Below, piece after piece: positions 8,894-10,645 of a stretch of 17,294 nucleotides of DNA. Origin of the DNA: Flavobacteriia bacterium (GTDB taxonomy: Bacteria; Bacteroidota; Bacteroidia; Flavobacteriales; Flavobacteriaceae); contig QNYL01000036.1 of NCBI GenBank assembly GCA_003973375.1, positions 1 to 17,294 on the forward strand, read 5' to 3'. Within the stretch, counting starts at the first letter, position 1. Each line of letters begins with the position of its first letter. Position numbers and translations under genes: made by a program. The notes under the pieces were generated by a model, which saw only the letters and a program-made list of their open reading frames with translations, searched no databases and was not told the DNA's origin.

Positions 8894-10645
8894 ATGGAAC
8901 CTTTTATAGTATCTGCAAGAAAATACCGTCCTCAGAAGTTTGATGATGTGGTGGGCCAGCAGGCCATTACCAATACGCTTGAAAATGCTATAAAGAGTAA
9001 TCATTTGGCTCAGGCCCTGCTTTTTACCGGTCCGAGAGGCGTTGGAAAAACCACTTGCGCACGTATTCTTGCCAAAAGAATTAATCAGGAAAGCAGCGAG
9101 AACATCTCAGAAGATGAAGATTTTGCCTTTAATATTTTTGAACTTGATGCCGCTTCCAACAATTCTGTTGACGATATAAGAAGCCTTACAGAACAGGTAA
9201 GGATTCCTCCTCAAACAGGTAAATACAAGGTGTATATCATCGATGAGGTGCATATGTTGTCTCAATCAGCCTTCAATGCATTTTTAAAAACACTTGAAGA
9301 GCCTCCGGCACATGCCATTTTTATTTTGGCTACAACCGAAAAACACAAGATCATTCCAACGATCCTATCCAGATGTCAGATCTTCGATTTTAAAAGGATC
9401 GGAGTTTCAGATATTAAAAAATATCTTCATAAAATAGCAAAAGAAGAAGGAATTGAAGCCGATGATGATGCTCTGCATATCATCGCACAAAAAGCTGACG
9501 GAGCTTTGCGTGATGCCCTTTCCACTTTTGATCGCGTGGTAAGTTTTGCAGGGAAAAATCTTACGCGGCAGGCCGTTACCGAAAATTTAAATGTACTCGA
9601 TTACGATTATTATTTTAAGGTAACCGATTTGCTTACAGAGCATAAGATCCCCGAAGTTCTGCTTGTTTTTAATGAAATTCTCGACAAGGGTTTTGATGGA
9701 CATCATTTTATTTCCGGGCTGGCTTCACATTTCAGAGATCTGATGGTAGCCAAGGACAAAGAGACGGTTTCATTGCTTGAAGTTGGCGATAATACAAAAA
9801 AATTATATCTCAATCAGGCCGTAAAAACGAGTCTTCGGTTTTTATTGCAGGCCCTGGATCTGGCAAATGAATGCGATCTGAAATACAAAACCAGTAAAAA
9901 TCAACGGCTGCTTGTAGAGCTTACGCTGATGCAGATTGCCTCTATCGATTTCGATGGAGAAAAAAAAAAGCCTAAATACTTTATAATACCCGCTTCTCAC
10001 TTTGCAAGCAGGGTTGTAGAAGAAAGATATGACCGGAAGCTAAAGGTTTCTTCTTCTGAAGAACACGAGAAAACCACTGCAATTCCTCCAAAGGAATTAG
10101 TACAAAAAAAACAAACTGTTACAAGTGAGGCAATAAAACCCGAACCTCCTATTCTAAGAAAACCCGAAAAAGGCAGAAAGCGAAATTCAGCCCTGAGTAT
10201 CAATAGTTTAAACAGAAAAAAGGAAGAAGAAGCTGCACTCCTGGCGCGTACACGGATCCATGAGGATAAAAAAAATCTTCCCTCAGATCCGTTTACTGAA
10301 GAAGCCTTTTTGAATGTATGGAATGATTTTATCAATATTTTACTTCAGGATGGAAAAAAAATCTATGCTTCCATACTCAATGCCGATAAGCCCAAAATCA
10401 AAGACAACCTGATCCACGTTACTTATTCCAATAAACTAATGGCTGATGAACTTAACAGGATCAAGCCAAAGACTTTAAAATATCTTCGTGAAAAACTCAA
10501 CAATTACAGCATTGATTTTAAGGTAACTGTAAATGAAGAACAGGCCGCAAAAGTGGCTTATACCACCCTCGAAAAATACGATCTCCTTAAAAGTAAAAAT
10601 CCTAATCTGAAGAAACTAAAAGATACTTTTAAACTGGATCTTTAA
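8894..10645 (+). CDS. dnaX: DNA polymerase III subunit tau (possibly also gamma)
   Basis: Clamp-loader ATPase that loads the beta sliding clamp; the full-length tau form also links the loader to the polymerase and helicase. The 583 residues begin with an AAA+ module: Walker A G-P-R-G-V-G-K-T-T (46-54), Walker B I-I-D-E-V-H (115-120), sensor-1 L-A-T-T-E-K-H (145-151) and the S-R-C motif (159-161). The collar domain III ends near 355. A basic, low-complexity linker (about 375-465) leads to a C-terminal domain (about 468-583). The zinc-binding cysteine cluster normally found after Walker A is absent; residues 61-80 are acidic instead and only Cys55 and Cys161 occur nearby. At codons 356-359 a run of ten A sits at the domain III boundary and may cause frameshifting to a gamma-like product. 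The start ATG follows a -7 box at 8865-8872. Confidence 0.96.
   Translation: MEPFIVSARKYRPQKFDDVVGQQAITNTLENAIKSNHLAQALLFTGPRGVGKTTCARILAKRINQESSENISEDEDFAFNIFELDAASNNSVDDIRSLTEQVRIPPQTGKYKVYIIDEVHMLSQSAFNAFLKTLEEPPAHAIFILATTEKHKIIPTILSRCQIFDFKRIGVSDIKKYLHKIAKEEGIEADDDALHIIAQKADGALRDALSTFDRVVSFAGKNLTRQAVTENLNVLDYDYYFKVTDLLTEHKIPEVLLVFNEILDKGFDGHHFISGLASHFRDLMVAKDKETVSLLEVGDNTKKLYLNQAVKTSLRFLLQALDLANECDLKYKTSKNQRLLVELTLMQIASIDFDGEKKKPKYFIIPASHFASRVVEERYDRKLKVSSSEEHEKTTAIPPKELVQKKQTVTSEAIKPEPPILRKPEKGRKRNSALSINSLNRKKEEEAALLARTRIHEDKKNLPSDPFTEEAFLNVWNDFINILLQDGKKIYASILNADKPKIKDNLIHVTYSNKLMADELNRIKPKTLKYLREKLNNYSIDFKVTVNEEQAAKVAYTTLEKYDLLKSKNPNLKKLKDTFKLDL
9960..9969 (+). promoter_or_regulatory. 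Candidate slippage / programmed frameshift site in dnaX
   Basis: Ten consecutive A bases cover the codons for Glu356-Lys-Lys-Lys359, right after the last helix of clamp-loader domain III. A -1 shift reads Lys-Ala and then TAA at 9973-9975, giving about 360 residues. A +1 shift reads Ser-Leu-Asn-Thr-Leu and then TAA at 9984-9986. A small imperfect stem (9989-9995 with 10006-10013, one bulge) lies about 19 bases further on, rather far for a ribosomal stimulator. Known dnaX genes make gamma by this type of event (ribosomal in E. coli, transcriptional in Thermus). Use of this site here is inferred. Confidence 0.5.

Follow-up and report, generated by a model that had tools for sequence, protein, structure and literature searches.

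The question raised by this locus is whether a single dnaX gene is the source of two clamp-loader proteins and, if so, at which level of gene expression the second one arises. The window, i.e. the whole stretch of 17,294 nucleotides that was analysed, contains at 8894..10645 of the forward strand the gene for the gamma/tau subunit of DNA polymerase III, whose encoded form, tau, is 583 amino acids long. NCBIfam model NF011531 (DNA polymerase III subunit gamma/tau) matches residues 1-583, i.e. the full length, TIGR02397 matches residues 6-348, and domain III, as defined by Pfam, spans residues 224-350. Six codons beyond the end of this collar domain (residue 350) begins a run of ten A (9960..9969, forward strand), a candidate slippage site conserved in the family, which is bounded by G at 9959 and at 9970 and spans codons 356-359 (GAA AAA AAA AAG). 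The -1 frame, reached by one A added to the mRNA or by a -1 ribosomal shift, continues after the run with AAA GCC TAA; its stop lies at 9973..9975 (forward strand) and the predicted gamma product is 360 aa long. The +1 frame, reached by one A lost from the mRNA, continues with AGC CTA AAT ACT TTA TAA, for a stop at 9984..9986 (forward strand) and a predicted gamma-like product of 363 aa. The gene is thus predicted, very probably, to give both a long and a short clamp-loader protein through a slip on the conserved A10.

From the letters alone, the earlier note had described the ten A's over codons 356-359, a -1 exit reading Lys-Ala-TAA, a +1 exit of five codons and a TAA, and a truncation just after the clamp-loader collar domain, all of which agree with the positions given above. 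Two of the three A8 runs that it had placed in the same gene are where it had put them, near 10104 and 10267 (10104-10111 and 10268-10275), while the third, listed near 10344, is at 10354-10361, ten bases further on. It did not foresee the reversed default in many relatives, nor the hairpin 5' of the run, both described below.

Taken alone, the run in the window is explicable by chance: when synonymous codons were drawn for this protein with the codon usage of its own dnaX, 47% of the draws retained a run of at least 9 A's. The source genome (2.09 Mb, 76% complete) contains four exact A10 runs, of which the one in dnaX is alone in lying within an open frame longer than about 90 codons. As the run is not rare in this gene alone, the case rests on the relatives, where its conservation is beyond what chance explains. 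Altogether, 365 dnaX loci of the phylum were scored for the length of the longest A run close to where domain III ends. They were drawn from the window's family (198 of 199 genomes gave a locus, G105 being the one that did not), from its genus, from samples of the order, the class and the phylum, and from a set of 80 named loci. After removal of 6 duplicates, 359 unique loci were obtained, 32 of which, having runs under 8, were left out of the stop, hairpin and state analyses. The order, class, phylum and G263-family samples leave out 13 matching genomes, and 3 more had no match at 1e-40. Named loci were retrieved by six peptide patterns and are enriched for the run, because DFDGEKKK is one of these patterns; the sets obtained by genome search are free of such bias. 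A tree of 358 rows was built by using FastTree on the N-terminal part of DnaX only.

Run lengths are strongly concentrated around ten: A10 was found in 267 of the 365 loci, A11 in 34, A9 in 23, A12 and A13 in 4 each, A8 in 1 and shorter runs in 32, so that 332 loci fall between A9 and A13. Within the window's family, 200 of 201 unique loci have at least nine A's just after domain III, and 168 have exactly ten; the window's genus carries the run in all six genomes (five A10, one A11). The sole family locus lacking A9 or more, L286 (genome G023), has a frame that stops at codon 354, with the C-terminal domain in the -1 frame. For unique loci elsewhere, at least nine A's were found in 23 of 25 from the order, 26 of 32 from the class and 6 of 21 from other classes, as well as in 71 of 80 of the named set. 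The run is also present in L349, where the surrounding retrieved stretch is 66% GC. Among 160 single-ORF family genes, AAA is used for the two middle lysine codons in 100% of 158 rows and 99% of 160 rows, respectively, versus 71% expected. Both the conservation of the run in relatives and the avoidance of synonymous AAG, which the earlier note had proposed to look for, are therefore borne out.

The stops that close the other frames are equally constant. A -1 stop lies within 30 nt of the run in 231 of the 232 single-ORF genes of the phylum (the exception is L310), and a +1 stop within the same distance in 224 (the exceptions are L008, L010, L037, L267, L274, L303, L304 and L310). When both stops were required to be close (-1 within 12 nt and +1 within 24 nt), 94% of 169 family genes qualified versus 19% of synonymous draws keeping the protein, so that the immediate out-of-frame stops anticipated by the earlier note are found in relatives too; for the 63 other single-ORF genes, the corresponding values are 78% and 27%. 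Isoleucine 364, the source of the +1 stop, is encoded by ATA in 85% of the family, against 23% expected. Excess codon conservation, computed over stretches of seven codons in 160 family genes, reaches its gene-wide maximum in the stretch starting at codon 349 and its second highest value at codon 358. Taken singly, the serine columns 217 and 334 have a higher codon conservation than any column of the site; a possible reason is that no single mutation converts a TCN serine codon into an AGY one. By these measures of codon use, the site is kept under strong selection.

The position of the tau frame relative to the run was determined by tblastn. Tau is one ORF in 232 genes, and 64 are split, with the C-terminal domain encoded in the -1 frame (54 genes) or the +1 frame (10 genes). 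In 31 of 327 genes the C-terminal frame was missed by tblastn; open frames settled 24 of them, and 7 are without a state. As a result, 247 genes are tau-default and 73 of the 320 determined genes are gamma-default (64 from tblastn, 9 inferred from open frames). In the latter, the frame as encoded has its stop where gamma ends, and a slip would be required for tau. All of the 64 split genes have a stop in the default frame at most 30 nt from the run, and 63 of them have one in the third frame as well; in nearly every gene, then, one of the three exits is predicted to lead to tau, and the other two to end at once. The dnaX of the window is a single ORF and hence is not of the two-ORF, gamma-default type, which occurs in one of the six genomes of its genus (G004, 69% complete, A11). 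Among the named loci, all 5 of Flavobacterium and both of Chryseobacterium are gamma-default, and Aquimarina mytili is tau-default while Aquimarina sp. RZ0 is gamma-default. On the tree of 358 rows, at least 46 switches between the two defaults are needed (24 when only the family is counted). The site is, by prediction, a conserved slippage device whose exit frame changes often. That the device is what selection keeps, while the frame behind it flips across the Bacteroidia and leaves species with different encoded defaults, tau or gamma, is a tentative reading, to which we would give slightly less than an even chance.

One lineage is without the run. In the G263 family, at least nine A's were found in 0 of 34 loci (30 from the G263 family and four named; L338, L383-L411 and the named L033, L049, L053 and L077), one of which has an A8. 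We infer that this family corresponds to the Bacteroidaceae. L385 is identical codon for codon to the named Bacteroidaceae locus L033 over the compared stretch, so that the two may be one species. Judging from the genes, the lineage may make tau only. A G run followed immediately by a -1 TAG (GGG-CGT-AGC or GGG-CAT-AGC) was considered as a replacement in Bacteroidaceae-type genomes and was rejected, being present in 9 of the 34 loci and lost in 25. Within this family, L409 (from the single-contig genome G315) has a G10 slightly 3' of the position where the A run normally lies, and its -1 frame stops two codons further on. Two outliers elsewhere were also recorded. L066, from an uncultured Bacteroidales (SRR10912534 bin 42), has no A run and shows an in-frame TAG at dnaX codon 366, just after domain III, beyond which the C-terminal domain is encoded without a change of frame; this could reflect readthrough, an altered genetic code or an error. 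In L325 (G216, a 0.3-Mb genome of the same order), the dnaX frame ends right after domain III, at codon 345, and tblastn gave no C-terminal domain; this reduced genome may encode gamma as its sole form of DnaX.

Directly 5' of the run, at 9940..9959 of the forward strand, an 8-bp hairpin is predicted (arms 9940-9947 and 9952-9959), which is proposed as a stimulator of slippage. Its energy in the window is below that of all 100 synonymous draws. The common form in the family is a 7-bp stem, the last G of which touches the run; all seven pairs form in 106 of 200 family genes and at least six in 115, versus 0-10 genes in slid registers. A stem ending within 3 nt of the run, with an energy of at most -3, was found in 92% of the 200 family genes, in 70% of their synonymous draws and in 34% elsewhere in the same genes; in 101 of the 200 the folding energy falls in the lowest 5% of synonymous draws. 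Codon choice in the hairpin is biased in the family (observed versus expected: Ile ATC 79% and 18%, Gly GGA 84% and 29%, Ala GCC 71% and 29%, Ser TCT 65% and 24%). Outside the family, the signal fades: the hairpin reaches the 5% level in 4 of 24 genes of the order, 3 of 22 of the class and 0 of 10 from other classes; it does so in 21 of 71 named loci, many of which belong to the window's family. Run length and hairpin strength showed no link (Spearman 0.01, p 0.84). A gamma-default gene of the same order, L321 (G220), has only an A8, yet carries a 14-bp hairpin (-26.7 kcal/mol) directly 5' of it; perhaps the strong stem offsets the short run.

These features can be assembled into one scheme, parts of which are held with different confidence: recoding at the dnaX A run we regard as nearly certain, and it is probable that transcription is the level at which slippage takes place, as it is that the A10 is a programmed RNA polymerase slippage site yielding tau and gamma. 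RNA polymerase would slip on the dT10 template and release dnaX mRNAs with ten, more or fewer A's. In-register mRNAs would be translated into tau (583 aa). On those shifted in either direction, translation would end at a stop no more than 17 nt past the run, and the product, a gamma of about 360 aa, would comprise domains I-III only. At the moment when the 9-10 bp RNA-DNA hybrid consists entirely of rA:dT pairs, the hairpin of the nascent RNA would occupy the RNA exit channel; it could hold the polymerase there and raise slippage, a hairpin over such a hybrid favouring realignment. In single-ORF genes, the A10 starts at the second position of the codon in 190 cases, at the third in 11 and at the first in 5. 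A length held near ten while the codon phase varies, together with shifts in both directions, is fitted better by transcriptional slippage than by a -1 ribosomal shift. Slippage of this kind would also explain the closure of both other frames, the split genes in both directions, and a structure favoured 5' of the run and not in general 3' of it.

It could be objected that nothing programmed happens at all, the run being an ordinary lysine stretch in AT-rich DNA and the split genes assembly errors or decay. The survival of nine or more A's in nearly half of the window's synonymous draws agrees with such a view, and single split cases may indeed be assembly errors. In L295, a doubtful +1-type gene, the run is 206 nt away, and some other +1-type split genes come from draft assemblies, where homopolymer length could be wrong. 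The A10 is found, however, also in Hymenobacter (three loci at 61-62% GC), where for L080 nine A's were retained in 0 of 200 synonymous draws, and the conservation counts contradict an ordinary lysine stretch. Since whole genera, with Flavobacterium in all of its five loci, and single-contig genomes (e.g. G027, G059, G219 and G227) share the gamma default, assembly error is not an easy explanation, and in split genes no stop interrupts the C-terminal frame over about 600 nt or longer (medians of 648 and 651 nt). This objection is therefore very improbable. A more serious competitor, although still an unlikely one, is that tau and gamma come from -1 ribosomal frameshifting on A_AAA_AAG (or AAA/AAC/AAT) within the run, with transcript slippage minor. 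The window does contain A_AAA_AAG at 9964..9970 (forward strand), in the phase that PMC3711429 gives for the frameshift site of E. coli dnaX, and because of it -1 frameshifting may contribute there; moreover, 54 of the 64 split genes need exactly a -1 shift, and a downstream stem is predicted in the window itself. Such a heptamer, however, needs no ten A's and would not tolerate three phases, the +1 frame too is closed by selection, and the ten +1-type split genes need the other direction, which a -1 ribosomal shift cannot serve. Structure downstream of the run is better than 95% of the synonymous draws in no more than 8.9% of the 169 family genes and 7.9% of the 63 others; the window's own downstream stem ranks at 15% of draws, and that of its 93%-identical sister L084 at 75%. 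An E. coli-like downstream stem was consequently rejected as a stimulator, as it is no better than synonymous draws, and a search with Rfam models found no dnaX element at the window site. Upstream, a GGAG is present at 9956-9959, 4 nt from the heptamer; the Shine-Dalgarno-like stimulator of E. coli is about 10 nt from its heptamer. For F. johnsoniae, the anti-SD is described as playing a small role (PMC8710568).

With slippage by RNA polymerase as the preferred reading, the part of the hairpin has still to be judged, and here the chances of its being a stimulator are about even. The stem's 3' arm should be inside a ribosome decoding the run, which makes an action on translation less likely. 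The homopolymer slippage reported for E. coli RNA polymerase need not involve a hairpin. It is only a little less probable that the run and stops drive recoding by themselves, and that GCCTCTATCACTTTTGATGGAG is kept as sequence, for some other reason or by descent. An identical 21-mer common to 58 of the 200 family genes would agree with this, and so would the commonest serine codon, TCT, with which a G-U pair forms in place of the G-C pair that TCC would allow. In a tree-aware count of covariation, four pairs lean to joint change and three are neutral, with no significance and, for most contrasts, too few cases to attain it; such a count is weak evidence in any case, because loss of the entire motif produces joint changes too. 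On the other side, 85 family genes are without the standard stem, and of these 24 beat 95% of shuffles and 14 beat 95% of synonymous draws, often by means of other stems that end at the same place. Double-change cells number 87 versus 56 +/- 7 in shuffles that ignore relatedness, none of 1000 shuffles reaching 87, and 52-71 in slid registers. Finally, pair -16/-5 is still formed in 37 of the 58 rows in which its 5' letter is altered.

Whether cells need gamma is an old question. A passage of a 2012 review (PMC3290774) states that most bacteria beyond enterobacteria and Thermus have no dnaX frameshift signature and may not make gamma. In contrast, the signature was found here in 200 of 201 family loci and in 26 of 32 from elsewhere in the class, and 73 of 320 genes would require the slip for tau itself. 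If real, slippage of this kind argues that both DnaX forms are needed. Tau-default, gamma-default and run-less genes form a natural series for testing the role of gamma, the run-less lineage serving as a contrast group for its function. Furthermore, dnaX is a candidate for hairpin-stimulated RNA polymerase slippage in a chromosomal gene, and gene callers would probably read a gamma-default dnaX as truncated or frameshifted.

Slippage in Thermus, frameshifting in E. coli and two-ORF dnaX genes (Antonov et al. 2013) are already established; in the open-licence literature, no account was found of a class-wide site, of repeated switching or of a 5' hairpin in dnaX. Genes of the Thermus type give mRNAs with extra or missing A's, and gamma at about 1:1. 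The window shares with them a homopolymer A run of about nine or more, an undivided tau ORF, stops close by in both of the other frames and, as far as can be predicted, a gamma made from slipped mRNAs. It differs in having A10 in place of the A9 of Thermus thermophilus, on which slippage is transcriptional (Larsen et al. 2000, cited in PMC1088944, PMC5009743 and PMC6260861), in the position directly after domain III, in the 5' hairpin, and in relatives that switch the default to gamma. Placed in E. coli, the Thermus run is reported to slip in both directions (PMC6260861); according to PMC5009743, the RNA polymerase hybrid is of 9-10 bp, slippage is efficient on nine A's or T's, and one nucleotide can swap the roles of the recoding products.

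Antonov et al. (PMC3711429) list 17 two-ORF dnaX genes from 12 genera, nine of them with A10, and suggest transcriptional realignment. The gamma-default relatives found here resemble these genes, as described there, in that tau would be made by recoding; the single ORF of the window is unlike them, as they are split and shift in the -1 direction only. With E. coli dnaX the window has in common an in-phase A_AAA_AAG and a -1 frame that stops after a single new codon; unlike E. coli dnaX, genes of the window type have ten A's in variable phase, both other frames closed, no conserved downstream stem and no clear role for an upstream Shine-Dalgarno sequence. The closest parallel for the hairpin is the Roseiflexus IS630 element, in which, as reported in PMC5009743 from Penno et al. 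2015, a stem loop lies directly 5' of the slippage motif, as does the 8-bp stem of the window (end at 9959), where dependence on the stem is putative. That motif, in the same account, is a T5C5 in a transposase gene and loses one C, whereas the site described here is an A10 in a chromosomal replication gene, at which slippage would be expected in both directions.
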